Positions 5,544 through 45,437 of a stretch of DNA of 45,437 bases are shown here, piece after piece. Each line of letters opens with the position of its first letter. Positions within the stretch are counted from its first letter, which is position 1. This stretch comes from Patescibacteria group bacterium (GTDB lineage Bacteria > Patescibacteriota > Minisyncoccia > Phycocordibacterales > Phycocordibacteraceae), in the NCBI GenBank assembly GCA_019752595.1, contig JAIELV010000003.1:1-45437 (forward strand). Direction: 5' to 3'. The translations under genes and the position numbers were made by a program. The notes below the pieces were generated by a model that was not told the DNA's origin, searched no databases, and was given only the letters and a program-made list of their open reading frames with translations.

Positions 5544-5549
5544 ACGGAG

Positions 5550-5570
5550 CCCGCACACTAACTTTCGTCT
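5550..5570. repeat. Left arm of a perfect 21-bp inverted repeat flanking the GIY-YIG gene
   Basis: cccgcacactaactttcgtct; exact reverse complement at 5828..5848. Confidence 0.95.
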
Positions 5571-5821
5571 TTGAGACTTCGCGAAATTCTCGTCATAAGG
5601 TGCTTTCGCGCTTGTCCTCGTAGCTTAAGCGCATCTTCACGATGGCGTGCGTCATCGTGGCTACGATACGCTTCATAGTAACAAAGTATAAACGGCGCGC
5701 GAGGACTGGTTGAACGTGACTTTTTTTCCTGATGCTCGCGAAGTCTCCGACGCAAATCACTGGTAACGCCTACATATAAATCACCATCTCGAACACTTTT
5801 CAGCACATACACATAAAACAT
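5558..5821 (-). CDS. GIY-YIG nuclease family protein (UPF0213-like)
   Basis: MFYVYVLKSVRDGDLYVGVTSDLRRRLREHQ... catalytic-motif layout typical of small GIY-YIG proteins. Confidence 0.9.
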   Translation of the reverse strand: MFYVYVLKSVRDGDLYVGVTSDLRRRLREHQEKKSRSTSPRAPFILCYYEAYRSHDDARHREDALKLRGQARKHLMTRISRSLKDES

Positions 5822-5827
5822 GTAGGC

Positions 5828-5848
5828 AGACGAAAGTTAGTGTGCGGG
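5828..5848. repeat. Right arm of the 21-bp inverted repeat flanking the GIY-YIG gene
   Basis: agacgaaagttagtgtgcggg; exact reverse complement of 5550..5570. Confidence 0.95.
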
Positions 5849-5863
5849 GGAAGAGGGGGTTAC

Positions 5864-5938
5864 CTGCGCCATGCGACCGACGGGTGCGAGCTCCAAGCAA
5901 AAATCTTTGTGAGTGCAGTCGTCGGCCGCATGGCGCAG
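5864..5938 (-). repeat. Long imperfect inverted repeat / RNA hairpin
   Basis: Arms ctgcgccatgcgaccgacg and cgtcggccgcatggcgcag: 19 bp with one mismatch, which becomes a G-U wobble in minus-strand RNA. Confidence 0.85.
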
Positions 5939-6019
5939 ACAACTCTACTACTGTACGCCTATCTACGGTTTCGAACAACTTTTTTAGCTGTAAAAATTAT
6001 ATAGTGCGAGGCGTGGAAA

Positions 6020-6066
6020 AACGACTCTTCAAACCGTAGGTGCTTCTACGGTGTAGAAGAGTCGTT
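6020..6066 (-). terminator. Two-tier hairpin, possible terminator on the minus strand
   Basis: acgactcttc/gaagagtcgt plus inner ccgtag/ctacgg; the minus strand continues into TTTTT. Confidence 0.5.
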
Positions 6067-6111
6067 CGGAACCGCAACGAAGCAATGGGTAATTTTAACG
6101 CTAAGAAACGC

Positions 6112-6132
6112 AAAACCCCGCCGAGGCGGGGG
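6112..6132 (-). terminator. Rho-independent terminator of a putative small RNA
   Basis: Minus strand CCCCGCCTCGGCGGGGTTTTG. Confidence 0.7.
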
Positions 6133-6178
6133 CTTACGCAGATTTTTGTCGAGCTAACACTTTTAGTTAGCACTCACC
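6112..6178 (-). ncRNA. Putative ~65-70 nt small RNA or leader/attenuator
   Basis: Near-consensus promoter, hairpin GCTAAC-TAAAAGT-GTTAGC, then GC-rich terminator; no sizeable ORF inside. Confidence 0.45.
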
Positions 6179-6183
6179 TCCAT

Positions 6184-6211
6184 ATTATAGCAAAAACGGC
6201 TGGTTTTGCAA
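6184..6211 (-). promoter_or_regulatory. Predicted sigma70-type promoter
   Basis: Minus strand TTGCAA (6211-6206), 16-nt spacer, TATAAT (6189-6184). Confidence 0.6.
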
Positions 6212-6225
6212 GTCTTGCGGGGCGT

Positions 6226-8394
6226 CTAAGGGTTTCTACCTGCGGTAATCTCCTGTATATAGAATTCGCCCTGTTCCCTGAACGTGGCATCCAAAGAAAT
6301 TGCGGTACGGATAGAGTTTATCGCCGCCTCTCTGTTTCCAGCAGTTAGGTACGCCGCCGCGAGCTGTACATGAAGCTGGGCATTTTGGGGGTTCGCGTCA
6401 ACACGATTCTTTACTATAACTACCACTCTTTCAAAATTTTTCACTTCAAGATACGCCTGAAGAATGTACTCATTGTTAGGAGTTAGCGTCTCCCACTTCT
6501 CCATCATCAGCTTTTCAGCGAGGGCATTCTCACCCGCACGTATAGCAGTGGATGCGTAGTACGCAACTGCATCTTCATATGACGGATATATATCGTACGC
6601 TTTCTTAAACCATTCAAGAGAACCTGCAGCGTTTCCACGATTGAATTCAAGAACCGCGAGTTCAAATATGATTTGCTGTTTATTTGGCGAGAGTTCGTGC
6701 GCCTTCAAGAGTGATGCCAGTGCGCCTTCGTAATTACCCATCTGTCTCCAGAACGAACCGAGAAACATATGGAGCCGCGCATCATTCGGCGCTTTTAGGA
6801 GTTCTTTCTCCATTTCGGAAACAGCGTAGAGCGCCGCTTCTTGCTGAAACGCTGCATCCCCCGCGTTCAGACTTTTAACCTGCACCGCAAACTGAATCAA
6901 CTGCTCTGCACTTTCCTGACTTCCCAAACCTCCTGCGGCGCGAGCTTTTTTGAAATACTCCAAATTTTCATTGATAGTCGCGTGCGGTGAGATACCCTGA
7001 ATGATGTTTGAAGCCGTTGCCATCCCAGGCACGTTGACGAAATAGAATACGGCGCACATGACAAGAATAATCGCGGGTGCGATAACCATGTTGAGATTCC
7101 CCGAGACTGGACTGCCAGAAACTGGCGCATCGTCCGCATACGATCGGTAATAGATATAGGCGAGCGTAGACATAAAGAAGACGTAGCTCAAAAGATGATC
7201 AAACACGAAGAGGTTGTGGAATGCGTACGCGGCAAGAAGTCCGGTAAATATACTTCGCTCAAAATTCGTCAGCGCTGAGCCAGGCCTCCAAATTGCCCAC
7301 ATGGTAGCGACGTACAGCGACACATAGAGAATGAGTCCGACAATACCTCCCGCAACGAGCCAGTCTACGAATGCGTTATGGGCTCGATCAAACCACGGCT
7401 CCTGTGAGTGTAATGATGGTTTAAAGTAGGTATTAAAGATGTAGTTGTATCCTTCCTGACCCCATCCGAAAATCGGCCGCTCGGCAACCCCCTGAAGGGC
7501 CATGTCCCAAATCGCAAAACGTGTTTCTCCTTGCGCAATGTTGATGGAAGCAAGTCGAGTAAGGATGCCATCGTTTTGGACAAACTGAGTATCTTTTATC
7601 GCAAAGAAGCCTCCGACTACGACTGCAGTCGCAACAAGTGCCACAGCTCCCCATTTTTTCATCTCAGCATTTCCTTTCCCAAGGAACAGAAGCAAAATAC
7701 CAGTGAGAAGCGTGCCCCCGATGAGTGCAAGCGTGGTGCCACGAGTGGCGGAAAAGAAAATCATTGTCACCTGAAGCGCAATAGCGAACAGGTAAAAATA
7801 ACGCATCAGAAATGTCTTCGCCCACGTTTTTACCAAGTAGTACACAGAGACAAATGCGTGGAAAAGCATATAGACCGCCATATAGGTCGCGTTCCCGAAT
7901 GTCCCGTCAACACGCAATCCGCCCTGATTGATCGTGAGCGTACCAGAAAGTTGCAAGAGACCATAGAGGCTCATCAAGACCGAGACGACAATGGACGTGT
8001 TCCAAAACCACTTCCACGCTTTCTCTGTCTGCATCACGGACCACAACAGGAAGAAATACGCGGTTGAGTGCGCGAGGCCAATCCAACCTTCCATACGTTC
8101 AAAGTTAGACCAAAATGCTTTCTCAGGATTTACTGCGAAAAGTACGGAAATACCGGCCGATGCAAGGAATGCGAGCATGAGAACCGGAAGCGCTTTGAAG
8201 CGCGGGCGTGCCGAAACATCTTTCAGCATCAGTATCAGCCATAGCGCAAATGCAATCTCTACAATAATCCGAAACGCAAAGTTCTTACCCGTAATGAACG
8301 GAAAAAAGAATGAGTTCGCTACGATAAACGGGATCAAAGTCGCGAGGCACAGGAGGACGATAACGGCGTTCCGCAGGAAAGAATCAGAATTCAT
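6226..8394 (-). CDS. O-antigen ligase/polymerase family membrane protein with C-terminal TPR repeats
   Basis: Many TM segments, RLASINIAQGETRFAIWDMALQGVAERPIFGWGQEGYNYIFN, then TPR-like LHMFLGSFWRQMGNYEGALASLLKAHELSPN. Confidence 0.88.
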   Translation of the reverse strand: MNSDSFLRNAVIVLLCLATLIPFIVANSFFFPFITGKNFAFRIIVEIAFALWLILMLKDVSARPRFKALPVLMLAFLASAGISVLFAVNPEKAFWSNFERMEGWIGLAHSTAYFFLLWSVMQTEKAWKWFWNTSIVVSVLMSLYGLLQLSGTLTINQGGLRVDGTFGNATYMAVYMLFHAFVSVYYLVKTWAKTFLMRYFYLFAIALQVTMIFFSATRGTTLALIGGTLLTGILLLFLGKGNAEMKKWGAVALVATAVVVGGFFAIKDTQFVQNDGILTRLASINIAQGETRFAIWDMALQGVAERPIFGWGQEGYNYIFNTYFKPSLHSQEPWFDRAHNAFVDWLVAGGIVGLILYVSLYVATMWAIWRPGSALTNFERSIFTGLLAAYAFHNLFVFDHLLSYVFFMSTLAYIYYRSYADDAPVSGSPVSGNLNMVIAPAIILVMCAVFYFVNVPGMATASNIIQGISPHATINENLEYFKKARAAGGLGSQESAEQLIQFAVQVKSLNAGDAAFQQEAALYAVSEMEKELLKAPNDARLHMFLGSFWRQMGNYEGALASLLKAHELSPNKQQIIFELAVLEFNRGNAAGSLEWFKKAYDIYPSYEDAVAYYASTAIRAGENALAEKLMMEKWETLTPNNEYILQAYLEVKNFERVVVIVKNRVDANPQNAQLHVQLAAAYLTAGNREAAINSIRTAISLDATFREQGEFYIQEITAGRNP

Positions 8395-8441
8395 TGTGCA
8401 TCTATAGTACCACCAGTACTCGGCTGCTTATGCCCCCGCTT

Positions 8442-9242
8442 CTATTTTCTTCCGAAATCATCTGCAAAACGAATAATATCCTCTTCGTGCACGTTCGTTC
8501 CGTGAGCCACCTCAACAATCGCGCCGCCGTTTGCAGAAGAAAGCCTGTGCCTTACCCCTTTTTTAAACGTCACAAAGTCCCCTGGTTTCAATACCTTCTT
8601 TCTCTTTCCTATTTCGGCAATGACCGTACCTTCAATGCACACCCAGAACTCGTCCCGATGCGCGTGCTTTTGAAGCGAGAGGCGCCTGCCCGGAGAAACA
8701 TTAATCGTCTTTATCCAAAAATGCTTATCCTTCTTGTAGGTGTGCATGTACCCCCACGGGCGAACATCCAAAATACCGTTTGCCGCAATGTTGTTGGTAA
8801 GCCAGGATGAAGATTGCACCTTTCCGCCCGAGCCGACACCGAATAACATTTTGATTCCGTATTTTTTACACACGGTTGTTTCAGGGATGTCCACTTCGCT
8901 TTTCCGGTCGCCGCCGTTTGCAAAAATATCTGGTTTCACTTTCGCGAGTACTTTAGAGACACTTCTATCAGGATCGTTGGTTTTGTGTCCGGTAACGACG
9001 ACGCGATCAACAGCCTTAATCCCCATCAACACTTCAATGCGCTCAGATTCGGGCATGAAGACAAAGCCTTTTTTTTTCTTCAGCCAGTTGTCGTTATTCA
9101 AAATAACTACAAGCTCCGTCCCCAGTTTTTTTGCTTCTGTCAGGTACCGCACGTGGCCGATGTGGATGGGATCAAAACCGCCTGAAACCGCGACCACAAC
9201 CCGTTTCTTTTTCCCTTTCGCGTCTTTCTTCATCTGGGGCAT
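8442..9242 (-). CDS. Cytidylyltransferase-like nucleotidyltransferase fused to a mannose-6-phosphate-isomerase-type cupin
   Basis: VVAVSGGFDPIHIGHVRYLTEAK (HxGH) at the N-terminus; PWGYMHTYKKDKHFWIKTINVSPGRRLSLQKHAHRDEFWVCIEGTV...PGDFVTFKKGVRHRL cupin at the C-terminus. Confidence 0.85.
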   Translation of the reverse strand: MPQMKKDAKGKKKRVVVAVSGGFDPIHIGHVRYLTEAKKLGTELVVILNNDNWLKKKKGFVFMPESERIEVLMGIKAVDRVVVTGHKTNDPDRSVSKVLAKVKPDIFANGGDRKSEVDIPETTVCKKYGIKMLFGVGSGGKVQSSSWLTNNIAANGILDVRPWGYMHTYKKDKHFWIKTINVSPGRRLSLQKHAHRDEFWVCIEGTVIAEIGKRKKVLKPGDFVTFKKGVRHRLSSANGGAIVEVAHGTNVHEEDIIRFADDFGRK

Positions 9243-9280
9243 TCTAATGCCTATCTAACCGAACGCAAACCAGGAAAGTT

Positions 9281-10921
9281 TCAGGGGCGAGGGACCTCCA
9301 GAGCAGAAGGACAGAGAGCCGTATCATAGACGTAAATGTTTTTGCCAAGTTGACTCAGTTTATAGTACGACGGCATCAGCAAGCGGCCGAGGTTGATATC
9401 AATATCAAACACTTCATCGTCCGGGATGTCATTACCAAATCTTGCGAGTGGCGTGCAATCCGCGATAGCGCGCTCCGTAATCACCAGGTCGGGGGGAGGC
9501 AGTGTGGTCAATACCGCACTGTCCGTTTCATTCGTTACCACGAGCGGACGAAATGGGATATCTGTTTTAAGTGTCCGTAGGTTCCGGCACGTGGAACCGC
9601 AGTGCGCATCCGCAAAAAACGTATACGATGCCTTGTTCATGGGGAGCGTGAATTCAAAAATATTCTCATCAATACGGATTTCTTTGTCTCCATATTTTGA
9701 AACAATAAAATCAGAGGCCGCATTGTATGTTGTTGGGATGGAGAGCAGTACCGCAGTGTAGATATAGAGCGCTAGCCCGACTGACGCAAAAATAATCGCT
9801 ACTCGCTTCCCTGGTGGAGGATACGCTGCGATAAGAAACATGAGGAAAAAGCCAATTGGAAAGATATGCCGAACGTTTAGCGCAAGGCCGTGGTCTATTC
9901 TGAAAACAACAGAAACAGCCACGATGTACACCACGATGTAGGTAAGTGCAAGGATGGCGAGCGTCTTGTCGCGCACTCGTGCCCTAAGCACCGGAATGAG
10001 CGCCAAAAGAAGGAGTGGGAATGCTTCAATGGCCTGTCGTGCATTCACGATAAACGATTCAAGCGGTGTGAGTGTGGGTTGAATATTTGAAATAGCCTGA
10101 AGAGATGCATTAAAAAATTGATTCACAAAAGTCCATACGAGGTCAACCGTGTTTTGCAAGTTGAGTGCAAAAATCCCGAAAAAAACCGCGAACCCCCCGC
10201 TCACAATAAGAAAAAGTCGCTGTAGCGATTTCGCGGTGCGTGAGAAGAAAAGAAAGATAATCGGGATGTTAATCAAAAAGACAGCCGCAAATGGGAAATT
10301 CGCTGTTGCCAGGAACGCGGTAACAACCGAAATGAGTGATAGTCGCCCAGGGACTCCCCGTTCCCGCTCCTCTCTGAGCGCGCGATACAGATAGATGAAT
10401 GACACAATGCAGAGAGCAGTTGAAAGCATCCACATCTTGCCCGAACGCGTCAAAAGAATAGCGAGCACGTTTCCGAAGGTCAGCACAAGAAGCGCAAAAC
10501 GCCACCACGCGGATGATACGTGAGTCTTTAAAAATCGATACACCACAAAAAGAAGCGCGACGGCCGCGAGCACGGACGCGATGCGGGGTACGAGTAAGCT
10601 GTATGACGGGTTGAGGATAAGAAATAACTTCAGTGCCTCAATATCTAATCCATTGAACAGAAACCCAACGGCGAGTGCAACGGCCATGAGTATATAGCTC
10701 TGATAGAATGAAATCGTGCCGTAATTGACATCACTTCCTGGGAGAAGTGTGTGGGCTTCCATAGCACGCAGTACTCCTCCTCCAAACGCCCATACATCGC
10801 TTATGGTATTTACCATCGGAAACGCGTACCAAACACCAATAAAGAAAGTGACTCCAAATAGGGCCACGACCACATCTTCCTTTGCGACGGTTCGCGACCA
10901 CTCTTTGAGCTTCCTCAGCAT
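9281..10921 (-). CDS. Multi-pass membrane glycosyltransferase-like protein (GT39/ArnT-PMT-like)
   Basis: 546 aa, around 10 hydrophobic segments, N-terminal periplasmic-loop-like region, soluble C-terminus. Confidence 0.6.
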   Translation of the reverse strand: MLRKLKEWSRTVAKEDVVVALFGVTFFIGVWYAFPMVNTISDVWAFGGGVLRAMEAHTLLPGSDVNYGTISFYQSYILMAVALAVGFLFNGLDIEALKLFLILNPSYSLLVPRIASVLAAVALLFVVYRFLKTHVSSAWWRFALLVLTFGNVLAILLTRSGKMWMLSTALCIVSFIYLYRALREERERGVPGRLSLISVVTAFLATANFPFAAVFLINIPIIFLFFSRTAKSLQRLFLIVSGGFAVFFGIFALNLQNTVDLVWTFVNQFFNASLQAISNIQPTLTPLESFIVNARQAIEAFPLLLLALIPVLRARVRDKTLAILALTYIVVYIVAVSVVFRIDHGLALNVRHIFPIGFFLMFLIAAYPPPGKRVAIIFASVGLALYIYTAVLLSIPTTYNAASDFIVSKYGDKEIRIDENIFEFTLPMNKASYTFFADAHCGSTCRNLRTLKTDIPFRPLVVTNETDSAVLTTLPPPDLVITERAIADCTPLARFGNDIPDDEVFDIDINLGRLLMPSYYKLSQLGKNIYVYDTALCPSALEVPRP

Positions 10922-30663: not shown

Positions 30664-32040
30664 TTAGTGTTTTTTCTTTTTGCCGTCCCCGAACTTCTTT
30701 AACTTTTCAAGCACTCCAGATAGCGTATTTTTCTCTGAAGTTTTTTTCTCTTCTTTGAGGTCTTGTTCAATCTCTTTCAATTCCTGTTTTGCTTCTTCTC
30801 TTCTCACTAGTTGAAGTGCGCGAATCATATTTTCAAAGACGTGATGTCCGAAGATGTACCGTCCTCCAAAGAAAAGAACGACAAGCGTGAGTACAAGAAG
30901 AAGAATCCACACAAGGTAACTTTCAAGGAACTGTGCAATCGCGTTTGGAGGTCGAACATCAATTGATTCATCGCGTACGTTCCCTGCTTTGTCGACAGCG
31001 CGCACAATGACAGTTACTCCTGACACCGAAGCGGACGGCACCTGGAACGGGCTTTCCGCGTCAACAAAAACTGGAGATGCGGTCGGTGCAGATGATGTAT
31101 CGATAACACCTACCTCGTAGTGATCAATACCTGAAAGATTGTCAGTGGTAAAGAACGAGACTAGCGTGCGATTTACTAAGACCACAGCGGCAACAACGTA
31201 GTTCACTTCGGGTTTAAACCGCGCTGGTGGTGTGGTGTCTATACGGATTAAAAAATGCGTCGTACCGCCCCACACACCGTTTTTGTAGGCTTTTATGTGA
31301 AAGTACCATAGTCCGTCAGCAAGATTTTCAAAACCTTTTGTTGTTCCAGTATCCGTAACAGCATTCCCTGGAATAGTGTTCGGTTTGTTGTCTAACACAT
31401 AACTGAAGCCTGTGACTCCCTGTTCAACCTCCCACGCAAGTACGGGACTATTATTGTTATACCAAGTACTCTGCGACGGATGGGTTTCGGAATACACTGA
31501 TGCACCTCCTGGTGCTTTTGCGATAATCACATACTCTGCTCTCCCCTTCTCCAAAGTCGCAGGACTTCCCAAGCCGTCATTTAAAAGAATATTTGAATCT
31601 GAACGGACGGAGAGGACAGCGCCCCCAGTAGATTTTGCACGAAATGTAATAGTGCCGATGACGCCTGAATCGGTCACGATGCCGTTTGGTATAACCCCAA
31701 CGTAACTCGCAGTACCTCGAGCATTGTCATACGTCGGTGGCTCTACCCACACACCGACGATTGATTGGCCTGTTGATGCTTGGACTATGGAAAGTCGGTC
31801 AGCATCAAAATTTAACCGCACCTCAATGCCGTTAATAGACGTGCCATTCGTATCCAAGACAATAGGCACCTGAAACGTGGAGCCTTCCTCGAAAGAACCG
31901 CTTCGCGGAGAAAATGACACAGCAACGTTCGGCACCAATGTGGACGCATCCACCGTGACAGACGCAGCAAAAAGCACTCCTGGGATTAAAAGGACCAAAA
32001 CAAGAAGTGCAAGATATACGAAAGAGAACCTACGCGTCAT
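30664..32040 (-). CDS. Membrane-anchored cohesin-like domain protein with C-terminal TM and charged cytoplasmic tail
   Basis: Signal peptide; SFSPRSGSFEEGSTFQVPIVLDTNGTSINGIEVRLNFDADRLSIVQAST..GVWVEPPTYDNARGTASYVGVIPNG; TM YLVWILLLVLTLVVLFFGG. Confidence 0.75.
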   Translation of the reverse strand: MTRRFSFVYLALLVLVLLIPGVLFAASVTVDASTLVPNVAVSFSPRSGSFEEGSTFQVPIVLDTNGTSINGIEVRLNFDADRLSIVQASTGQSIVGVWVEPPTYDNARGTASYVGVIPNGIVTDSGVIGTITFRAKSTGGAVLSVRSDSNILLNDGLGSPATLEKGRAEYVIIAKAPGGASVYSETHPSQSTWYNNNSPVLAWEVEQGVTGFSYVLDNKPNTIPGNAVTDTGTTKGFENLADGLWYFHIKAYKNGVWGGTTHFLIRIDTTPPARFKPEVNYVVAAVVLVNRTLVSFFTTDNLSGIDHYEVGVIDTSSAPTASPVFVDAESPFQVPSASVSGVTVIVRAVDKAGNVRDESIDVRPPNAIAQFLESYLVWILLLVLTLVVLFFGGRYIFGHHVFENMIRALQLVRREEAKQELKEIEQDLKEEKKTSEKNTLSGVLEKLKKFGDGKKKKH

Positions 32041-32078
32041 ATGCGCTTGTCTTCATTGTACGCCACGAAACACGCGCC

Positions 32079-33248
32079 TTAACGGTTTTTGCCCGATGAT
32101 GCGGAATCTATGTCGTGAATTTCCTTCTCAATGACTTTCTCGGCGTCATCCAAATCTTTTCTAATAGAAAGTATGTCGGTTTTCTCGCCTTCAGGGCTTT
32201 TGCGCGACGAACCTTTTGCGTGCTCAGAAAGATCTTGGCGCAAAAGTGTGAACGAACGATGCACTACGTCTTCCGCCTCTTTTACTTCGCGCTTGATTGC
32301 TGTAAAGGGGCGCGCGGGTTTTCCGAAATATCCGCGCTTAAGAAAATAGCCTATGAGGAACAGCAGGCCAAGAATAACGGCGAGCGCAACATAGACTGCG
32401 TATTCCCAACTCAGAAAACCTGCAATCCCACCAACTTGAAGCGTGAGCGGGTCGGAGGTCTCTGACTGGCGTCCATCCTCAAGAATCATCGTCGCGGTCA
32501 CCGCATACGGACCATTTCGTAGTATCGAAGGGACCAGAAGCTCAAAACTTCCTTCAGCATCCGCCGTGCCTGTTATGTAGACCTTCGATCCCGACACTGC
32601 GACAAATGAAAGTACGACGTCAGCCCTGCTGTGGTCTGACTTTCCTAAAATTGCATCATTCCCGTCGAGTAGGCCGAAACGGATTGTCGGCGCATCAAGA
32701 ATAGTAGCAACAGGCTTCGGTGCTTCTACAATAGGCTCTGGTTCAGGTTCAGGCTCTGGGGTCGGCTGAGGAGACGGCGCTGCGCCTACCGCAAGCGTAT
32801 AGGTCGCGGTCCGTAACCCTGTGGTGATGTCAGTCCCCTGGCCATCATTTGCCAATATTTGTCCCGATTCAAATGCGATAGTTGCCTGACCTGCTTTTTT
32901 CGCCCGAAGCGCCATCGTTAACACTGAACCGTTTGAACCCTGAAATCCTGAGAGCGAAACTCCTTCAAATGTCACTCTTCCTGATGCGTTTGAATACGAA
33001 GGCTCGGTAACCCAAAAGTTCAATACTGATCCTTTATTTACGTATTCAACTGAAAATAAATCCGTCGGGAAAGAAACAACACCTGAAGCGGCGTTCATTG
33101 CAACGTCACTCGTCACCGTGACGTTGACGATAACGCGCTGCCCTACCGTGTAGCTACCGCTTGCAGGGCTAAGCGACATTGTTGCCGCGTCTACCCCCGA
33201 CGGAATGAGCGCTATAAGAAACAAAGCGAGTGTGAGCAATTTCTTCAT
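32079..33248 (-). CDS. Membrane-anchored cohesin-like domain protein
   Basis: LSPASGSYTVGQRVIVNVTVTSDVAMNAASGVVSFPTDLFSVEYVNKGSVLNFWVTEPSYSNASGRVTFEGVSLSGFQG; PEPEPEP linker; TM AVYVALAVILGLLFLIGYFL. Confidence 0.75.
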   Translation of the reverse strand: MKKLLTLALFLIALIPSGVDAATMSLSPASGSYTVGQRVIVNVTVTSDVAMNAASGVVSFPTDLFSVEYVNKGSVLNFWVTEPSYSNASGRVTFEGVSLSGFQGSNGSVLTMALRAKKAGQATIAFESGQILANDGQGTDITTGLRTATYTLAVGAAPSPQPTPEPEPEPEPIVEAPKPVATILDAPTIRFGLLDGNDAILGKSDHSRADVVLSFVAVSGSKVYITGTADAEGSFELLVPSILRNGPYAVTATMILEDGRQSETSDPLTLQVGGIAGFLSWEYAVYVALAVILGLLFLIGYFLKRGYFGKPARPFTAIKREVKEAEDVVHRSFTLLRQDLSEHAKGSSRKSPEGEKTDILSIRKDLDDAEKVIEKEIHDIDSASSGKNR

Positions 33249-33250
33249 AC

Positions 33251-34165
33251 TTACTTCAAGGATACCCTACGTCTAGCAGTAAAAATTGCAAAAAAGAGAA
33301 ATCCTACAAAGAGCAAGAGCGCCACAGGCAAGCCCCAGGTCAAAAGGAATGAAGTAAGCCCAGGCTCTGTAGGCGCCAGGGTTGCAATACGAACATTCCC
33401 TTGGCTGTCGATTGCCCTAACAAACACGTACTGCCCAAGAACTTCTGTGCTGATTTGGTGCGGTGATTCAGCAGACACCCACGATACAAGAAACTCGGGC
33501 AGGAATCCTATATATGAAAAACCAATGTCATACGCGCGGATACCTGAATCTTTATCTTGTGTAGCAAATACCACAACGTCACCCTCGAGCCCGTACGGGG
33601 CTCCCGAAACTACAGCGGGCGTAAACGCTTCGGGTGCATATGTATCGGCTCCAAGACCTGCCGTCACTGGAGCGTCAGAAGCAACAACTGAAAATTCGGC
33701 AGAACTTTTCGAAAGAGAAATAGATGTTCCCTCGCCATCATTTAAATACGCTTTCGGCGCATCATTGAATGCAAACCTTCCAATTCCCTCACTGTTTGCC
33801 GTCAGGATAAGTGTAAACAAATTCCCGCTACCCGTACGCTCAGGACTCGCCTGATACCCGCCTGGCACCACACCTTCGAAATCGATAACTCCACTCGTGC
33901 GCTCGGCTGGTGGTGAAAGCCACAACGACACGACAGAGCCACGATACCGGACTTCAGAAACAGAAACGTTTTTAGGAAGTAACACTGAGCCCTCAATTGC
34001 GTTTATATTTTTCCCCTCAGTATCGAGAAATACCTCTACTGCGAATTGCCCGCCTAGATTCACAGCTTCCGGCGCCACAATACGAATCGTTGCGGCATTC
34101 GCGCTATGCGGAATAAGAACCAAGAGTAGTGTGAGTATAAAGTAGCGCATAATTACCCGGTCCAA
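33251..34165 (-). CDS. Membrane-anchored cohesin-like domain protein
   Basis: IVAPEAVNLGGQFAVEVFLDTEGKNINAIEGSVLLPKNVSVSEVRYRGSVVSLWLSPPAERTSGVIDFEGVVPGGYQ; C-terminal TM. Confidence 0.75.
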   Translation of the reverse strand: MDRVIMRYFILTLLLVLIPHSANAATIRIVAPEAVNLGGQFAVEVFLDTEGKNINAIEGSVLLPKNVSVSEVRYRGSVVSLWLSPPAERTSGVIDFEGVVPGGYQASPERTGSGNLFTLILTANSEGIGRFAFNDAPKAYLNDGEGTSISLSKSSAEFSVVASDAPVTAGLGADTYAPEAFTPAVVSGAPYGLEGDVVVFATQDKDSGIRAYDIGFSYIGFLPEFLVSWVSAESPHQISTEVLGQYVFVRAIDSQGNVRIATLAPTEPGLTSFLLTWGLPVALLLFVGFLFFAIFTARRRVSLK

Positions 34166-35478
34166 TTAGACGCCATAATTGAGAAATTGATAAGTGAAAT
34201 CTGTTTGTCGTTATTTAAATCGTACGCGACAGGGAATCCTTTCTTTTTATACCAAAACGCCTGAATCGAGAAGTCGACCAAGTTCACCCTGCCGTCGCAG
34301 TTTAAGTCACCACGGCGACCGCAAGAGTTCGTCGGTTTTTTACTTTTCAAAATATCCTGAAGACCAACCTTAAATGCTACTGAGGTGCTGGTCTTAGACA
34401 CTTGCCCAGACTTTGAGGTGAGAGAGCGTGTACTGTGCTGACCCATTTCAAGAGGGGATGTTACAAAGCTGTACGCATACACACCGTCAGCATCTGAAGC
34501 TGTCTCAAAAAAAAGTTCATTCTCCGAATTCACCATAATTGATACGGTGGACGTAGGTGATGTGTGACCGAATACGCGAATCGGACTTCCCTGACGAACC
34601 TCTTCTTTATCAACATCGATTGTCGGCGCGAGATAAATACCAGTCACTGTTACGGTGACGCCAGGAGCAAGTGTGACAGGAACTGGAGTTGAGGCGGATT
34701 GGTATCCGCTCTTATCTGTTGCATAGAGATTAAACAAGTACGTTCCCGCAGCAAGGTTATTTACTGTTATGGAGAATGCGGCAGTTTCTCCCACTGGCTG
34801 CCGCGCAAGCAACACTGAGTCTCGCAGTGTCGTAATCGTACTGTCTGGATACGCGCGTCCCATAAGAATAACGGTTGCATCGCCACCGCTCGGAATCGGC
34901 GCCCCGCCTCCTCCGCCACCTCCGCCGCCGCCACCTCCTCCGCCACCGGGCGGAGTAACAGGCGCCGAAGGAGTTGCTGAAACCTGTGTTGAAGTTGCTA
35001 TCGGATTTCCAAGAGCATCATGGGTGCGCACGACGAAATAGTATGTGGTGCCGTTCGTAAGTCCTGAGCGTAGAGAAGAAGTCACATTACCTACATTGGT
35101 AAACGTATACGGACCGCCGTTTGTGGTTGACTGGCCAATACGATACGAACCGACGTTGTATCCCAGTCCTGCACCAGACGCCGTCCAAGAAACAGTCGCT
35201 TCACCGTTACCCGCACTTGCCGAAACGGCCGAAGCGGCGGTCACAAACGGAAAATACAAAAACCCGAATCTTCCGATAAAACTTGCTGCAGTCGAACTTC
35301 CAATAATGGGGTCGCCAGCAGTGAACATTCTAAAACTTGCCGAAGTTCCGAAGCTACCTCCACTGTTTAAGATCGGCGCACGGATAATGAAGCTGGAACT
35401 TGTCATGTCTTCCGCGCGTGCAAAAAAAGGCGCGACAACCGCGAATGTAAGAAAAATTGCAACGAGTATGCCCCGCAT
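34153..35478 (-). CDS. Secreted FnIII-like protein with a C-terminal dockerin type I-like module
   Basis: Signal peptide; FN3-like GNGEATVSWTASGAGLGYNVGSYRIGQSTTNGGPYTF...SGLTNGTTYYFVVRTHDALGN; C-terminus DLNCDGRVNLVDFSIQAFWYKKKGFPVAYDLNNDKQISLINFSIMASNWTG. Confidence 0.85.
   Translation of the reverse strand: MRGILVAIFLTFAVVAPFFARAEDMTSSSFIIRAPILNSGGSFGTSASFRMFTAGDPIIGSSTAASFIGRFGFLYFPFVTAASAVSASAGNGEATVSWTASGAGLGYNVGSYRIGQSTTNGGPYTFTNVGNVTSSLRSGLTNGTTYYFVVRTHDALGNPIATSTQVSATPSAPVTPPGGGGGGGGGGGGGGGAPIPSGGDATVILMGRAYPDSTITTLRDSVLLARQPVGETAAFSITVNNLAAGTYLFNLYATDKSGYQSASTPVPVTLAPGVTVTVTGIYLAPTIDVDKEEVRQGSPIRVFGHTSPTSTVSIMVNSENELFFETASDADGVYAYSFVTSPLEMGQHSTRSLTSKSGQVSKTSTSVAFKVGLQDILKSKKPTNSCGRRGDLNCDGRVNLVDFSIQAFWYKKKGFPVAYDLNNDKQISLINFSIMASNWTG
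34903..34950 (-). repeat. In-frame GGN triplet run encoding a ~15-Gly linker
   Basis: Plus strand ccgcctcctccgccacctccgccgccgccacctcctccgccaccggg. Confidence 0.85.
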
Positions 35479-35622: not shown

Positions 35623-36048
35623 CTATTGACCGAGGTTAAGCGTGGCAACCTCGACGATAATGTCTTTCTTTGGATCGTAGAGAAACGCTTTCTGCGCATT
35701 TGGATATAAAAGAACTTGGAAGCCTATCTCGGCTTTTGCAAAGAACGGTTGATCTTTTAATTGCGCAGGGTCAGTGACCGTTGCCAAAGTCGGAGTTTCT
35801 CCTTCAGGAAGTGCAATCAAACGACCAATTTTCTCTACGGCTTTTGCAGTTTCTTCCGCCGCCTGCACCTCGGGAGTTAGATTTTGTGAGTTCGTATACA
35901 CCAGATAGCCTGCAACGATAACTCCCACAACAAGAAGCGCGACACCGACTTTTACCAAAACGCCTTTCGATAGCTTTGGCTTTTCTGAGTTCGTCTCGTT
36001 TTTTATTTCGGCAAATTGTTCAGTCATACGATTCTTATTCGGTCTCAC
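35623..36048 (-). CDS. Small single-pass membrane protein, LPEGETPT family, paralog B
   Basis: TM VLVKVGVALLVVGVIVAGYLVY; KIGRLIALPEGETPTLATVTDPAQLKDQPFFAKAEIGFQVLLYPNAQKAFLYDPKKDIIVEVATLNLG. Confidence 0.8.
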   Translation of the reverse strand: MRPNKNRMTEQFAEIKNETNSEKPKLSKGVLVKVGVALLVVGVIVAGYLVYTNSQNLTPEVQAAEETAKAVEKIGRLIALPEGETPTLATVTDPAQLKDQPFFAKAEIGFQVLLYPNAQKAFLYDPKKDIIVEVATLNLGQ

Positions 36049-36388
36049 CGAATGTTACGGGCGCAACTTCAAGAATTTTATTCGCTTTCGGGTCAAAAAG
36101 GTATGCCCGACCTGCTTGCGCATAAATAAGTACTTGATCCCCCACCTTTGCTTTTGCAAAGAACGCTTGGTCTTTGAGTGCATCTGTGTCTGTCACTTCT
36201 GCAACTGTTGGTGTTTCTCCTTCAGGAAGTGCGATTAATTTTGAAACCGCGGTCACCACAGAGGCTGACTGAGAACCTACGTCAGTATTTTGCGCTAAAG
36301 AATTACCTTGCTGACTTAAAAAAACTCCCGCGCCCCCAAACAGAACGACAGCAACAAGGAGCAATGGTCCCGCAATGTTTTTATTCAT
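36035..36388 (-). CDS. Small single-pass membrane protein, LPEGETPT family, paralog A
   Basis: TM plus VSKLIALPEGETPTVAEVTDTDALKDQAFFAKAKVGDQVLIYAQAGRAYLFDPKANKILEVAPVTFG. Confidence 0.8.
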   Translation of the reverse strand: MNKNIAGPLLLVAVVLFGGAGVFLSQQGNSLAQNTDVGSQSASVVTAVSKLIALPEGETPTVAEVTDTDALKDQAFFAKAKVGDQVLIYAQAGRAYLFDPKANKILEVAPVTFGETE

Positions 36389-37467: not shown

Positions 37468-37854
37468 TTACGGAGCGCCAGTACCAAGATTGACTGGCGC
37501 AACTTCAACAATTTTATTCAATGAAGGGCTGTAGAGAATGGCCTTCTGTGAGGTCGCGTAAATGAGAACCTTATCTCCCGTCTTTGCGTTCGTAAAGAAT
37601 TTTTGGTCTTTCAATTTTTCAGGGTCGGCTACAGTAGCCAAGGTTGGTGTTTCCCCTTCAGGCAAGACCATTAACTTTCCTACTTTTGCGACCACGTCCT
37701 TTAGTTCATTTTCCGCCACCGCTTTGGAGTTTGGGCCGCCAAGCATGTAGTATCCGAGCCCGCCGCCAGTCAAAACAAGAAGCACCACTAGGGCAATAAT
37801 AATATTTCGTGTTGAAAAAAGGCTTTTTTTCACCATTGCTACTGTTTCGTTCAT
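37468..37854 (-). CDS. Small single-pass membrane protein, LPEGETPT family, paralog C
   Basis: TM NIIIALVVLLVLTGGGLGYYML; VGKLMVLPEGETPTLATVADPEKLKDQKFFTNAKTGDKVLIYATSQKAILYSPSLNKIVEVAPVNLG; start trimmed to MNETVAM. Confidence 0.8.
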   Translation of the reverse strand: MNETVAMVKKSLFSTRNIIIALVVLLVLTGGGLGYYMLGGPNSKAVAENELKDVVAKVGKLMVLPEGETPTLATVADPEKLKDQKFFTNAKTGDKVLIYATSQKAILYSPSLNKIVEVAPVNLGTGAP

Positions 37855-37952
37855 ATTGTCTAATGATACCAGTAATGCTCTCGACGCCAAAGGGATATCA
37901 ACCTGAACACCGCATGCTGACGTAGAAAGAGCTACTATATAGACTGACTTCT

Positions 37953-38970: not shown

Positions 38971-41900
38971 CTAGGCTTGCTCGGGAGTTGGTTCTTCAAC
39001 AACCTCAACAGGTTGAGTATCTGAAGACGCTCCTGGAGAAACTTCTTCAGCGGGTGGACTCTCTTCAATCACTGCTTCTTCTTCGGGAATAGGCGCAATA
39101 TCGGGAGTTGTGGTGGACACATCTCCCCCGCCACTTGGTGTGGTGGTGCTGGTATCTTCAGGAATTAAATCAGGAAGAGTGATTATCGGCTCCGACTCAA
39201 CAGTGCGTGAGGTAAATTCTTTTGAATCCTTAACGGCGAGCGCTATCCAGGTAAAGGTCATATCTTCAGGCGCCGCTTTGCTGAGTCTGATTGTAAAGCC
39301 TGTTGTGTGACGCTTCGTTACCGCATAATTCACTCCTTCTGAGAGTATTGTTTCAATAATCGCATCATCAGTTGTGGTGCCGAAGGCAAGGGACGCGGAC
39401 ACAATCGGAGTTTCTACGTATTCCCTCCCAAACGTTACATCCACATCGCGCGCGCCTTTTTTCACGACCGCCGTACCGCCTGTATCCGACGTAAAGTATG
39501 GGGTGCCAAAGAAGAGCGCATCACCCATGACCGCAAGCGTGGTAGACGCATTTCCTGTTGTGCCGACTGAAAGTCCGCCTTCAAACGTTGCGGGGCCCGA
39601 AACCGCAAGCGCGCCAGTTGAAATACTTTTCGCTATCAAATCCCCTGCAAAGAATGCATTGCCCTCCGTATCAAACGACACCACAACTTCAATTTCAGGT
39701 TCAGGAAGAGTGACTACAGATGATTCAGTGGACGACGCGATCTCAGTAGTCGTTGAAGCAGAATCAAGTGCAAGAAGTGCAGCAGCTGCCTGCTCCGTAG
39801 ATGATGCAGAAGTTTCTGAAACCGCCGATGCCGCACGCTTACCACGAATGACCAGTGTTCCTCCTTCTATGCTCATTTCAAGCGAGCCGAGCGTCGTTCC
39901 TGAAATTTTGTTTGTCGTCAGCGCGTTTGCGCGTACGTTGTTTGCAATCAACTCTGGCGTAATCACTTCGACGACCGCGCTCAAAGAATCGGTAAATATT
40001 TCTGATACTGCGCCATACGGATTATCCGCACGTTGCGCTTTGAGTTGCGTCAGGAAGTCCAAAATCTCTGCTTCGCGTGTTTCAAACACCACCCCGCCCA
40101 CCTCGACATCAGTTTCAGGAATCGGAGTCCCTGCTTCAATAAGTGCGCTTTCTTCCTGAGCCTTCGCAATTTTCCACTCAAGAAGAGCGCTATCAACTGA
40201 TTGGCCGTTGAAATCCACGAGATTCACAAACATCATAATGGAACCGCACTTCGTATCTGCAAGCATGCCAAGCGCTTCTGCAGGACATGCCACCGCATCC
40301 ACCTCATTAAAGTCTTCAAGAGCTCTACCCAACACACGACCACTGACGGTCGCACGCATTGCATATCCTGCAATTGATGCTGATGTCAGAGGATCACCAG
40401 ATTTTATAGAACCGTTTTCAGTCGATATTTTTACTGGCACTCGCCCCACAAGCCCTATCGGGAACGAATCCTCTGTGTACGAGCCCGCCACAAAGCCTGG
40501 CTCTGTTGAAACAACACCGAGTATCGTGGGGTTGTACTGCCCACGCGAACGCAAGACGCCGAGCGGGTTCCCAGGATCATTCATCACCACTTCTCCAGGC
40601 TCTAATTTCTGGGTGGACGTATAATTTTCTGCAAGGTCGGCACCACCTGAGAAGAAGCCTCCGACCGCTGAGGAGTACACATTACCGTTTGCGGTGACGC
40701 GAAGCATTGATATTCCTTCGTTCTGCAAATCCAAAAGGTCTGAACCGCTACCGAGTTTGAACTCATATACTGTCGGCACGGGTACGTTCCTGTACGCATA
40801 TGCGCGCCCTGCTGCACCCATGACCCCTGACACCGAACCGTTAATTGCGCCGTTCAAAACGCCGTCAAATGTCGGGAAGTCACGACGGAAGTTGACTGTT
40901 ATCTGAGCCCACGTTTCACCGCCTGCGTTATTAATACTTGCCCCTGGTTTTCCAATAGTTCTAAAACTTGAAGTGGCGAGGTTTGCTTGGGATGTTGCGG
41001 TGCGGATCTCAAAAGAGACAAAGTTATCTGGGCCTTTCTTCCAATCAAGCGTGGTATTCGCTGGGAGCGCGGGAACCTGAATTTGCTCAGATAGGTATTG
41101 CCCGTCCGCATACCAACCTGCGTCATAGAACTGCGTACCAGTACTGCCTCCGCCGTTTATAATCACAAATTTTCCGTCCGGACGCTGAAACGCTGTTGCT
41201 CCGCCTGCAAGCGGTGCGGCAAATGTAGGTCCTGCCACAACTGACCCAGGAAGACCTCCCGCCACAGGTACACCTCCCCAAGGAAATACAATTGTCGATG
41301 GGATTGAAGAGCTTGCTTGCGGAACCACAAATGTGCCGTCAGGGCGCGGAATCATGATTCCGCCTCCGGCCCCAATCGCATTAGTGACTGCTGTGGCGAC
41401 ACCTGTTACACCGTTATCAGGGTTAATAATACTACTCAATGCTGAAGCGACACCGTTTGTGCCTCCCCCCGCTGCAAAGCTTCTCCAGTAACCGTCAGCT
41501 TGCTGAACAACGAACGAGCCGCACCCATGGGCTCCCGAAAGAACCGGGGCGGTAGCACTGAATATCTTTGCGCGAGGATCATAGTTCATGTTCGCCGTAG
41601 ACCCTGCAGCACCGACTGCGGCACCCTGGAACACTTTATACATTCCGTTTCTTAGTGGTATCGCCCAGGAACCGCAGTTTGCAGCAGATGTGAGGGTCGG
41701 TCCTGCTGGCAGGGTACCTGAAGTTTGGCGCACCGGGTCGTAGAGTGATGACGTGGTAAGAGCGTTACCGTGGACTATGGTCGCTGTACCATCACTGTTA
41801 GTTATTGCGAGTGCACCCAATCCTGCGTTGCCCGAAAGTGCAGGGCCAGCGGTAAATGTGTTTGTTTCTGGATCATAAATGTTTGTTGTTGCTGTGTTGT

Positions 41901-44900
41901 TGCCAAGTACAACCAAGTATCTGCCATCAGGGCGTTTGTATGCAAACCCACCAAGACCGTTTGCGGCGGTTGGGATGTTAGAGCCGGCCTGCGCACTAAA
42001 CTGTTGAGTATTTGGATCGTAGAGTGCCGCATTCGCGACCGGTGTTGGATTTGCCGCAATAATTACAAAGGTTTTATTTGGACGCGCAATAACGATCGTC
42101 GAAGTTCCTGCCGCCGTCGGAAGTACTGGATGGGCACCCGACGTCGTGCCGATATAGAATCCTGTCGTTCCCGCTTGTGTAGTCGGAGTAAGACGCCCGA
42201 ACGGAAGATACAATCGATCAGAAAGGGATTCAACGCGTGTCAACACTGGCCCCGAAGCTTCCGTCACGGGCGAAGTAGAAGCGGCGTTTGGAAATACGAA
42301 GTCAAAATTATTCCTTCTGACAAAAGATGAATTGTCTACATAGATGTCAAACAACGTAGGTCCCTGATAATCCAAGCGGGTGACCGTTGAATTATTTCCG
42401 CGGAATACGCCTCGGTCATCAATAATTTTCTCGGGGAACGGGCGTGTCATTTTTACCGTGACGCGAATACAGTTGTGTGTCGGATCGGGCTTTATCAAAT
42501 CTCCTGAAAATGCAACTTCTCTATCAACTGCACTGTTCAAAGGCGTGGTACAACCACTTGAATTGACTGCGGTCCTTACCAAGAACTGCAGTGTTGAAGT
42601 CGCATTTCTTCCTGGTGACTGTTGAGCCTGGCGGTCTGCAGTCCATCGCAAAATAGAACCCATGTTGAGTGCTGTTGTTGATATGTCGTCGGAGGTCCAC
42701 TGTGTGGCGGCGCCACTCATCGGAAGACCAGTGTCGAGATTGTTTGACGTGGTGCTACCGCCAACCAATATTTGCCATGTGCCGTCATGCCTCAGTATCG
42801 AATGTGCACCTGTAGTAACCGCAGTTAGGTTGGTACCGTGCGAAGTAAAGGTATCTGAGTTCGGATTGTAAATATATGAAGCCTGTGAAGTTCCACCGAC
42901 AATAACGAGGAACGTGCCATTCTGAAGCGGAATCGCATGTGCACCATCACCAAGCGCAACCCCTGGACCGTTTGAAGTTCTGCAAGTAAACGTATTCAAC
43001 ACGGGGTCGTAAATCGTTGAAGCGTTTATCTTTGAGAGCACAACGTACTTCCCGTCCGCACGACGAAGTGCAACAGAACCCGCACCGTTAATTTCGCAAC
43101 CAGTACCCATTGTTGGCCCTGCAACGAAGACACCTGTGTTTGCCGCACCGGCACCGACTGATGACTCACGGTACAACTGCGTGTTTCCCGTCGCACCACC
43201 AACCACAAGAAGATATGTAGAAGTTGCTGTCTTTAACATCAATGCGCCGGCACCTGTAGTACCTGTAGTCAAAGATGGACCTGTGGCAAACGTATCTGCA
43301 ACAGGGTTATATACCTGTGAAGTCGCCGCGCCTCCGTTCGTCATAATGTATTGTCCATTAGAACGCAGTGCTGCAACGGTCCCGGCGTTTGATGCGTTAA
43401 CTGCAGACCCCGCGTATGCGGCAAAGTTACCTTGCGGGTCAACAACGGTTGTTGTGGTCAGACCGCCTCCATGAACAATACGGTATTGACCTGAAGGGCG
43501 AGGGAGCGCAACGGCCCCTGCGCCAGCGGCGGCAGTTAACACCTGCGCGGAGTTTGTAAATGTTCCTGCAACGGAATCATATACATCCATACCCGTACCG
43601 CCACCGCGAATCACTAAGTACTTACCGTCGGCGCGCAGAATGGACATCGCACCCGCACCTATCGTGCCTGATGTTGCGGGCTGACCTGCTGTCGTTATTG
43701 TGCCTTTTTCGCTATTCGGTATGGTTCCTTCAGACATTTCCAACTGCCCGTTCGTATTATTTAATCCTGATCCAACCGTACCAAGAGCAAAATCCTCGCT
43801 CGTCGTGCGTGACACTGAATTGCTGTCAGTATTGATAGTAAGCCCGCCTGCGTTTGCAACCGTGAACCGATCTACACCCGATTGTTGCAGAGTAAGCAAG
43901 CCTCCCGAACCGCGCTGATCAAGAACCGCGAGCGGAAGCGCCGTTGTTGAAGATGCGGCAATCGTTACCCACGGCGTTGATGTGCCAATACCGAGACGAT
44001 TTGTGGAACTCAGCCACACCAAATCCGCATCGCCACCAAAACTGCCACCTGAATAGAATTGCACTGCGCCTTCAGGACCTGTTGGTGTACCGCCCGATCC
44101 GCCGTCGTCCGAACCGCAGATAACGTTGCCACTTGCGTCAGTCTGAAGAAGCTGTGCGCCCGATGAGCAGTTAAGTGCGGTGATTGCCAAATTTGTCGTT
44201 GTTGCATTGCCGAGCACTTTCAAATTTCCTGTCGTTGTTGCGCCACCGGAAATGGTAAGACCGCCTGCTTGTGTGCCGTCTCCTATAGTAGAAGAAGCCG
44301 TTGCAGAAATACCTTGGAAGGCTGAGAGAAGGCCGGACGGACCATCCACTGAAACGAAGCGTGTTGAGGCCGTTGAGGAGCCGACTTCAAACAAAGGATT
44401 CTGCTGACCAGAAGTACCCGCGATTGCAAGCTTGCCCCACGGGGTTGTAGTGCCGAGACCAAAGTTCCCTGTCGTACCGACCGTGAGTTCCGCAGTAGTT
44501 GATGTAGCAAAACCTCCTGGCGTCGCGAGACCTATGTAAAGGTTTCCGTTGATGCTTCTAAATGTCCAGTGGTTAGAGGTATTTGAGCCATCGGAAAGCG
44601 CGAGCTGAGGCCTAGTAGACGTTGCAAGTTGCACCAACCACCGTGGCGTCGTAGTACCAAAACCGGTAAATCCAAGCGATGTCATGCGGGCAACTTCATT
44701 CGCGCCGTTGTTACCTAAACCAAAGATAATTGAATCAGCTCCTATGCCTGTGCCTGACGTTGAACGAAGCGTGAGGTTAGAACCTGCAGCAGTGCCACCA
44801 ATAAGAAGAGGTACTGTGAGCGAGGTTCCAAGTGTTGGTGACGCGGAGAACGTTGGTGCTGCGTTGTTGCCCACCAAGAGCGTGTTTGCTGTCGTGTTTG

Positions 44901-45437
44901 TGTTACATACGAAGCGCGTACCGTCGTAGTACCAGATGCCGTTGGTGTTTGCACATGCCGTCGCATTCGTACCCCCTCCTGCTATACCAAGGTTCAGTGT
45001 TGAGGTTGCGGTGTACAGAATCGCCGTTCCCGCACCGTTCACATACGGAATGGTGTTTGCAGAGAAGTTTGCGGTGTTAAGTGCGCCAGTACCGCCTGAG
45101 GTGTAGACAAGACCGTTTCCTGTAAGATTCGACAACGTCGTGATGTTCTGTGATGCATTGACGTTGAATGCCGTACCTGTGTACGTCAGTCCCGTGCCTG
45201 CAGTGGTGGTCGCCGCACCAAACCATCCCGTGACGCCACCCTGTGTACCGTATGCCAACACTTGTCCAGGAGTGCCCGTGAAGAGATTGTTCGTGGTGGT
45301 TGCGATGGAGAGAGCTGAAGGAGTGGTGCCTAAGATAACCACAGGGTTTGAGAGTGCGAGTGCACCTGATGCAGTGAGTGTGGTGGTTGATACAGAACCC
45401 AAGGTCGTTCTGCCTGTGGTCTGCGTATAGTATGCAA
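38971..45437 (-). CDS. Giant repeat-rich adhesin-like surface protein, partial at the N-terminus (runs off right edge)
   Basis: >2150 aa; the frame stays open from the TTG at 45402 to the edge (..AYYTQTTGRTTLGSVSTTTLTASG); Thr/Ser/Gly-rich stretches, kelch/beta-propeller-like repeats, GGADLAENYTSTQKLEPGEVVMND region, acidic Pro-rich C-terminus. Confidence 0.9.
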   Translation of the reverse strand, partial: AYYTQTTGRTTLGSVSTTTLTASGALALSNPVVILGTTPSALSIATTTNNLFTGTPGQVLAYGTQGGVTGWFGAATTTAGTGLTYTGTAFNVNASQNITTLSNLTGNGLVYTSGGTGALNTANFSANTIPYVNGAGTAILYTATSTLNLGIAGGGTNATACANTNGIWYYDGTRFVCNTNTTANTLLVGNNAAPTFSASPTLGTSLTVPLLIGGTAAGSNLTLRSTSGTGIGADSIIFGLGNNGANEVARMTSLGFTGFGTTTPRWLVQLATSTRPQLALSDGSNTSNHWTFRSINGNLYIGLATPGGFATSTTAELTVGTTGNFGLGTTTPWGKLAIAGTSGQQNPLFEVGSSTASTRFVSVDGPSGLLSAFQGISATASSTIGDGTQAGGLTISGGATTTGNLKVLGNATTTNLAITALNCSSGAQLLQTDASGNVICGSDDGGSGGTPTGPEGAVQFYSGGSFGGDADLVWLSSTNRLGIGTSTPWVTIAASSTTALPLAVLDQRGSGGLLTLQQSGVDRFTVANAGGLTINTDSNSVSRTTSEDFALGTVGSGLNNTNGQLEMSEGTIPNSEKGTITTAGQPATSGTIGAGAMSILRADGKYLVIRGGGTGMDVYDSVAGTFTNSAQVLTAAAGAGAVALPRPSGQYRIVHGGGLTTTTVVDPQGNFAAYAGSAVNASNAGTVAALRSNGQYIMTNGGAATSQVYNPVADTFATGPSLTTGTTGAGALMLKTATSTYLLVVGGATGNTQLYRESSVGAGAANTGVFVAGPTMGTGCEINGAGSVALRRADGKYVVLSKINASTIYDPVLNTFTCRTSNGPGVALGDGAHAIPLQNGTFLVIVGGTSQASYIYNPNSDTFTSHGTNLTAVTTGAHSILRHDGTWQILVGGSTTSNNLDTGLPMSGAATQWTSDDISTTALNMGSILRWTADRQAQQSPGRNATSTLQFLVRTAVNSSGCTTPLNSAVDREVAFSGDLIKPDPTHNCIRVTVKMTRPFPEKIIDDRGVFRGNNSTVTRLDYQGPTLFDIYVDNSSFVRRNNFDFVFPNAASTSPVTEASGPVLTRVESLSDRLYLPFGRLTPTTQAGTTGFYIGTTSGAHPVLPTAAGTSTIVIARPNKTFVIIAANPTPVANAALYDPNTQQFSAQAGSNIPTAANGLGGFAYKRPDGRYLVVLGNNTATTNIYDPETNTFTAGPALSGNAGLGALAITNSDGTATIVHGNALTTSSLYDPVRQTSGTLPAGPTLTSAANCGSWAIPLRNGMYKVFQGAAVGAAGSTANMNYDPRAKIFSATAPVLSGAHGCGSFVVQQADGYWRSFAAGGGTNGVASALSSIINPDNGVTGVATAVTNAIGAGGGIMIPRPDGTFVVPQASSSIPSTIVFPWGGVPVAGGLPGSVVAGPTFAAPLAGGATAFQRPDGKFVIINGGGSTGTQFYDAGWYADGQYLSEQIQVPALPANTTLDWKKGPDNFVSFEIRTATSQANLATSSFRTIGKPGASINNAGGETWAQITVNFRRDFPTFDGVLNGAINGSVSGVMGAAGRAYAYRNVPVPTVYEFKLGSGSDLLDLQNEGISMLRVTANGNVYSSAVGGFFSGGADLAENYTSTQKLEPGEVVMNDPGNPLGVLRSRGQYNPTILGVVSTEPGFVAGSYTEDSFPIGLVGRVPVKISTENGSIKSGDPLTSASIAGYAMRATVSGRVLGRALEDFNEVDAVACPAEALGMLADTKCGSIMMFVNLVDFNGQSVDSALLEWKIAKAQEESALIEAGTPIPETDVEVGGVVFETREAEILDFLTQLKAQRADNPYGAVSEIFTDSLSAVVEVITPELIANNVRANALTTNKISGTTLGSLEMSIEGGTLVIRGKRAASAVSETSASSTEQAAAALLALDSASTTTEIASSTESSVVTLPEPEIEVVVSFDTEGNAFFAGDLIAKSISTGALAVSGPATFEGGLSVGTTGNASTTLAVMGDALFFGTPYFTSDTGGTAVVKKGARDVDVTFGREYVETPIVSASLAFGTTTDDAIIETILSEGVNYAVTKRHTTGFTIRLSKAAPEDMTFTWIALAVKDSKEFTSRTVESEPIITLPDLIPEDTSTTTPSGGGDVSTTTPDIAPIPEEEAVIEESPPAEEVSPGASSDTQPVEVVEEPTPEQA

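Follow-up and report, generated by a model that had tools for sequence, protein, structure and literature searches.

The four-gene operon on the minus strand (35478 to 30664) of the window, i.e., the whole stretch of 45,437 nucleotides of a Patescibacteria group bacterium that was analysed, very probably encodes a membrane-anchored, non-cellulosomal cohesin-dockerin display system. In this reading doc, the first gene, would encode a secreted adhesin-like protein (fn3, Ig-like) that lacks its own membrane anchor. The dockerin at its C-terminus would plug, presumably with calcium, into the cohesins of three receptors encoded in the same operon (coh1, coh2, and coh3). These cohesins would face outward behind a signal peptide and be held by a C-terminal transmembrane (TM) helix, and coh2 would extend past this helix into a conserved helical cytoplasmic tail. 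Because the anchorless payload protein would dock by its dockerin into anchored cohesins, the attachment site would stay constant while the payload could be swapped. The model is computed from domain identities, hydropathy topology, gene pairing, co-occurrence, co-divergence, and the modelled docking of an orthologous pair. It predicts that doc binds the cohesins of the window's own proteins, that the complex is exposed on the surface, and that it may serve to attach the bacterium to a host cell or to a surface. Docking would depend on calcium; the ligand residues are conserved in sequence.

The sequence-only reading had described four same-strand, nearly gapless genes, with two dockerin-like calcium-binding repeats at the end of the first and a signal peptide, a cohesin-like domain, and a C-terminal TM in each of the other three. 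All four ORFs are present where that reading placed them and all of these features were found again (Table 1), the repeats with support from PF00404 and the PDB. The intergenic gaps are 2, 2, and 38 nt when coh1 is counted from its ATG at 34150, which is the likelier start and lies 2 bases past the doc stop. A promoter scan of the operon returned 0 promoter-like sites, and terminator predictions in the operon were at chance level. The source genome has 903,456 bases in three contigs and its completeness is rated 100%. The closest named relatives of doc are found in Ca. Zambryskibacteria (47% identity) and Ca. Magasanikbacteria (42%).

Table 1. Features of the operon, with positions in the window
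Feature	Position	Strand	Description or evidence
doc	34153..35478	-	441 aa; signal peptide, fn3, Gly-rich linker, Ig-like Big_6/Big_13, C-terminal dockerin
Dockerin module	34156..34344	-	PF00404 on domain alone; PDB profile match; sole genome match
Dockerin Ca-loop repeats	34308-34273 and 34221-34186	-	two repeats at doc C-terminus
coh1	33251..34165	-	304 aa; signal peptide, cohesin, second domain, TM, short cytoplasmic tail
coh1 cohesin domain	33689..34099	-	profile A4, E 2.6e-41; ortholog fold search
coh1 TM anchor	33275..33331	-	hydropathy
coh2	32079..33248	-	389 aa; signal peptide, cohesin, Pro-rich/Ig-like region, TM, conserved cytoplasmic tail
coh2 cohesin domain	32796..33188	-	cohesin profile search, E 9.9e-47
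coh2 TM anchor	32370..32426	-	hydropathy
coh2 conserved cytoplasmic helical tail (predicted)	32109..32300	-	HMM made without window copy, E 3.8e-13
coh3	30664..32040	-	458 aa; signal peptide, cohesin, OmpL47-like domain, TM, lysine/glutamate-rich tail
coh3 cohesin domain	31525..31926	-	cohesin profile search, E 4.5e-52
coh3 TM anchor	30862..30918	-	hydropathy

Three paralogous small TM proteins adjoin the operon (35623-36388 and 37468-37890) and share the motif LPEGETPTxAxVTD...LKDQxFFxxAxxGxxVLxY. This family (LPEGETPTxAxVTD motif) also adjoins the dockerin operon in L031, L034, and L024. Interleaved with the small TM proteins are two membrane-anchored proteins that have the class A beta-lactamase fold (PF13354; 36489-37466 and 37953-38945). 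Their scores are far under the beta-lactamase equivalog cut-offs, and they are probably peptidoglycan-related serine enzymes and not resistance genes. A giant protein of 2,143 aa with no confident Pfam domain is encoded at 38971-45402. The place upstream of the dockerin operon is taken by a relative in L031 and by a different giant in L034 (2,573 aa, without matches in a Pfam scan). A wider conserved neighbourhood was found in few loci only; the DOC/COH block alone is widely kept.

Whole-protein Pfam and NCBIfam scans were indecisive for coh1, coh2, and the dockerin, and profile searches with relatives were required. The isolated dockerin domain passes PF00404 (23.9 bits against a cut-off of 22.9), the whole doc protein scores under the cut-off (18.3 bits), and all 22 aligned dockerin relatives match the family. 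The dockerin profile also matches solved dockerins in the PDB, best 2y3n_B (E 3e-11). Orthologs of doc in relatives have 40-59% identity and carry the dockerin at the extreme C-terminus; in doc itself, fn3 occupies aa 89-167 and Big_6/Big_13 aa 202-268 and following. The module is type I-like, with two calcium loops of the form DxNxDxxxNxxD, although position 12 of the second loop holds Asn in place of Asp. This Asn is unique among 59 unique adjacent dockerin/cohesin pairs, over which the calcium-loop ligands are almost invariant.

Hydropathy shows a hydrophobic signal at the N-terminus and a TM at the C-terminus of coh1, coh2, and coh3. Each contains a single cohesin, and they match one another by tblastn (E about 1e-11 to 1e-12). 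The cohesin beta-sandwich fold is assigned to coh3 by PF00963 (33.3 bits against a cut-off of 24.1, E 6.4e-8; its match to NF047446 is weak) and to the coh1 type by an ortholog model. The identity of the coh2 cohesin rests solely on homology to coh1 and coh3, because the coh2-type profile found nothing convincing among PDB sequences. The Pfam scan gave no cohesin match for coh1 and coh2 themselves; PF00963 is matched by 4 of 14 aligned coh1-type domains and 5 of 12 aligned coh2-type domains. The coh1-type profile matches 5m2o in the PDB (E 6e-4). When an AlphaFold2 model holding a coh1-type ortholog cohesin was searched with Foldseek, the best 50 PDB matches were all cohesins, led by 6kgc_A (E 5e-10) and including Archaeoglobus 2xdh (E 1.4e-9). 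Pfam profile, PDB sequence, and fold searches together uphold the cohesin and dockerin assignments of the sequence-only reading. A viral origin was also considered and rejected: in BFVD the model finds mostly low-TM hits, and these matches are weaker than those to cohesins in the PDB.

The charged cytoplasmic tails of 65-95 residues that follow the TM in coh2 and coh3 had been overlooked in that reading. In coh2-type proteins the stretch past the TM contains a charged, helical segment of some 70 residues that is conserved and, from this position, predicted to be cytoplasmic. When 3,554 ORFs from the fetched loci were searched, a tail HMM matched cohesin proteins or the gene immediately following one (L024, L086), and 21 of its 22 matches in 106 whole genomes fall inside cohesin genes. 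The lone non-cohesin match is in a genome without a listed cohesin (G051). A Pfam search with the coh2-type tail found no family. In L024 (11831-12562), a 243-aa protein carries the coh2-type tail; its separate gene comes directly after a short-tailed cohesin gene. To our knowledge, based on a non-exhaustive search, no cohesin anchor bearing such a cytoplasmic tail is known. A tentative possibility, which we consider doubtful, is that in episymbiotic Patescibacteria the TM cohesin receptors relay adhesin docking or host pull to the conserved tail, acting in contact sensing or cytoskeleton tethering and not as a passive display rack.

Pairing of the two modules was followed in two samples, 106 genomes of the family and 380 genomes from across the phylum to which the search tool assigns the window. 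The window's genome has one dockerin and three cohesins by genome-wide profile searches; the scan for further dockerins that had been called for thus leaves doc as the only one. In the family, every one of the 31 strong-dockerin genomes also has a cohesin; a cohesin alone occurs in 4 genomes and neither module in 71 (Fisher P 9e-23, uncorrected for phylogeny). In the phylum sample, 117 genomes have a dockerin, 128 a cohesin, and 85, spanning 59 families, both. Cohesin is thus found in 85/117 dockerin genomes vs 43/263 without dockerin (P 2e-26, again uncorrected for phylogeny), and 7 of 60 strong-dockerin genomes lack a cohesin at threshold. A cohesin lies downstream on the same strand within 1.5 kb (<=1.5 kb) for 48 of 70 strong dockerins of this sample; about a third do not adjoin one.

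The usual order is DOC first, then one to four COH genes, and the gaps in the 59 adjacent pairs are mostly -20 to +55 nt. Dockerin and cohesin distances in these pairs are correlated (r 0.66, reached in 0 of 2000 permutations), which partly reflects shared ancestry. A dockerin subgroup of DFN type (L025-L028, L049) pairs with a cohesin subgroup without the SxxxW motif. A non-N-terminal TM is present in 102 of 124 cohesin-only ORFs (many of the others are cut by locus ends) vs 3 of 59 dockerin-only ORFs. In L101, L104, and L106 the cohesins are divergent, and two or three hydrophobic stretches lie ahead of the cohesin domain; the C-terminus of the protein upstream of each weakly resembles a dockerin (E 1e-5 to 1e-6). 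These cases suggest that pairing may reach beyond the profile thresholds used.

Docking was modelled in L036, where the dockerin gene shares its reading frame with the cohesin gene that follows it. With the stop translated as Gly, they form a single dockerin-signal peptide-cohesin chain; this fusion is a modelling device with the signal peptide as linker, and no readthrough is claimed. For this adjacent DOC+COH pair of 223 residues AlphaFold2 gives a pTM of 0.80 and a dockerin pLDDT of about 90; the linker is disordered. The control, a natural COH-linker-DOC adaptor of similar size (L117), reaches a pTM of 0.60 and a dockerin pLDDT of about 70. By our own estimate, two such domains without a fixed relative position give a pTM of about 0.6. 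The comparison rests on pTM and pLDDT, and the control's alignment is shallower (11 rows vs 24). The lower values of L117 are what an adaptor with a different dockerin partner should give. The models are supportive of cognate docking of the adjacent-gene pair, though not proof of it.

That dockerin and cohesins bind other partners (e.g., host-cell proteins) and not one another is very unlikely: some genomes are cohesin-only or dockerin-only, and orphan cohesins exist (L053-L056), but the tight pairing, the co-divergence, and the selective AlphaFold2 docking argue against it. The earlier description of a self-contained plug-and-socket is supported by the genome's one dockerin and three cohesins, their near-perfect co-occurrence and frequent adjacency in relatives, and the controlled single-chain docking of an ortholog.

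While the paired modules are kept, what they carry varies. Dockerin proteins are 175 to 1,608 aa long, with short ones of 175-213 aa (L025-L028, L064-L066) and swapped payloads of 1,404 aa and 1,413 aa at the same gene position (L047, L048). Immediately upstream of the short pair in L025, which consists of just the two genes for dockerin and cohesin, lies a 1,664-aa HYR/Ig-like/fn3 protein (4337-9331) with homologs in four loci. Natural COH-DOC proteins occur in L045, L050, L051, L117, and L119, and L118 has a COH-COH-DOC protein, the sole two-cohesin protein observed, beside two dockerin proteins of 920-949 aa. Dockerin genes stand six in a row in L109 and four in L108. It is highly improbable that a single old operon has merely been co-inherited, its modules past binding and now structural calcium-binding and Ig-like domains. 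The slightly degraded second calcium loop of the window would fit such a loss, but plug and socket cores are kept while payload and copy number vary, the calcium ligands are near-invariant, and the further architectures (COH-DOC, COH-COH-DOC) exist. The recurrence of the gene pairing throughout the phylum suggests a general, non-cellulosome means of dressing the patescibacterial surface.

Another reading is a minimal cellulosome, in which displayed carbohydrate-active enzymes scavenge polysaccharide. Cellulosomes share the docking principle, and in PMC9123182 (2022) expressed cohesin and dockerin genes of Ca. Shapirobacterales (CPR) are interpreted as a cellulosome. Some relatives' payloads also point this way. 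A dockerin-like gene product of L119 (2499-3713) matches GH39 (E 3.7e-10), its gene being followed by two cohesin-TM genes and then a COH-DOC gene, and a dockerin gene product of L108 matches a PQQ-type propeller and DUF5060. L119 is a possible enzyme-bearing version, and given the GH39-like and PQQ-propeller payloads, enzyme clients may exist in some members, not in the window. Most scanned payloads, however, have no enzyme family: they either match no known domain or carry domains of the Ig-like, PKD, or MBG kinds. The genome's sole dockerin sits on an fn3/Ig-like protein without enzyme families, so that a dockerin-bearing glycoside hydrolase is lacking. Pfam and NCBIfam scans found no glycoside hydrolase in the operon, as had been noted from the sequence, and no carbohydrate-binding module in its four proteins. 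Every socket of the window is a single cohesin with a TM anchor; there is no multi-cohesin scaffoldin among them and no SLH match, and in place of an SLH or sortase anchor the proteins have a C-terminal TM followed by cytoplasmic residues. The minimal cellulosome is therefore very unlikely. The earlier label "cellulosome-like" holds for the docking principle but not for the operon's content.

Most Patescibacteria are thought to live on other cells, and how bacteria with such tiny genomes attach and display proteins is a main open question. A plug-and-socket module found in about one fifth to one third of the sampled phylum genomes would be a concrete and testable answer. Its payloads are interchangeable, its clients can be read from any genome through their dockerins, and new cohesin-dockerin pairs become available for engineering. 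It also offers a testable hypothesis for SEML1_0315, a dockerin protein of a Saccharibacterium that a genetic study counts among the essential genes (PMC10633639).

Clostridial cellulosomes (type I; CipA/CelS, Acetivibrio ScaB/Cel5) resemble the operon in dockerin sequence (2y3n_B, as above), in cohesin fold, and in having the plug at the C-terminus of secreted clients. The operon differs from them in that no scaffoldin array, cellulase, or CBM was found in it, in the TM that replaces SLH or sortase, in the hydrophobic L(V/I)DFSI of both dockerin repeats, and in the conserved cytoplasmic tail. The Ca. Shapirobacterales genes and SEML1_0315, essential in an epibiont, are of the same phylum and likewise involve dockerin proteins; the available parts of PMC9123182 and PMC10633639 describe neither gene pairing nor receptors. 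In the literature covered, with subscription papers outside the scope, the pairing in an operon, the receptors with their TM, and the cytoplasmic tail were found described nowhere, nor was there any paper connecting cohesin and dockerin with Parcubacteria. The pairing is read as a real, phylum-wide non-cellulosomal display system, and while cohesins and dockerins in single CPR genomes have been noted before, the system as such is undescribed as far as we found.

That cohesin and dockerin modules also occur outside cellulosomes is established (Peer et al. 2009, cited by PMC10066038 and PMC9012536). The non-cellulosomal cohesins of Archaeoglobus fulgidus (2xdh) and Clostridium perfringens glycosidases are likewise single cohesins outside cellulose degradation, and 2xdh, 2jh2, and 2vo8 rank among the best fold matches of the coh1-type ortholog model. 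Unlike these, plug and socket genes here are operon-paired phylum-wide and have dedicated membrane receptors. Dockerin/cohesin proteins of ANME archaea have been proposed to act in something other than cellulose degradation, perhaps in a partnership between cells, and their payloads are variable (PMC9012536). There, up to 5 cohesins occur with a dockerin and the clients are ABC-transporter binding proteins, whereas the system described here uses single-cohesin TM receptors with a tail.
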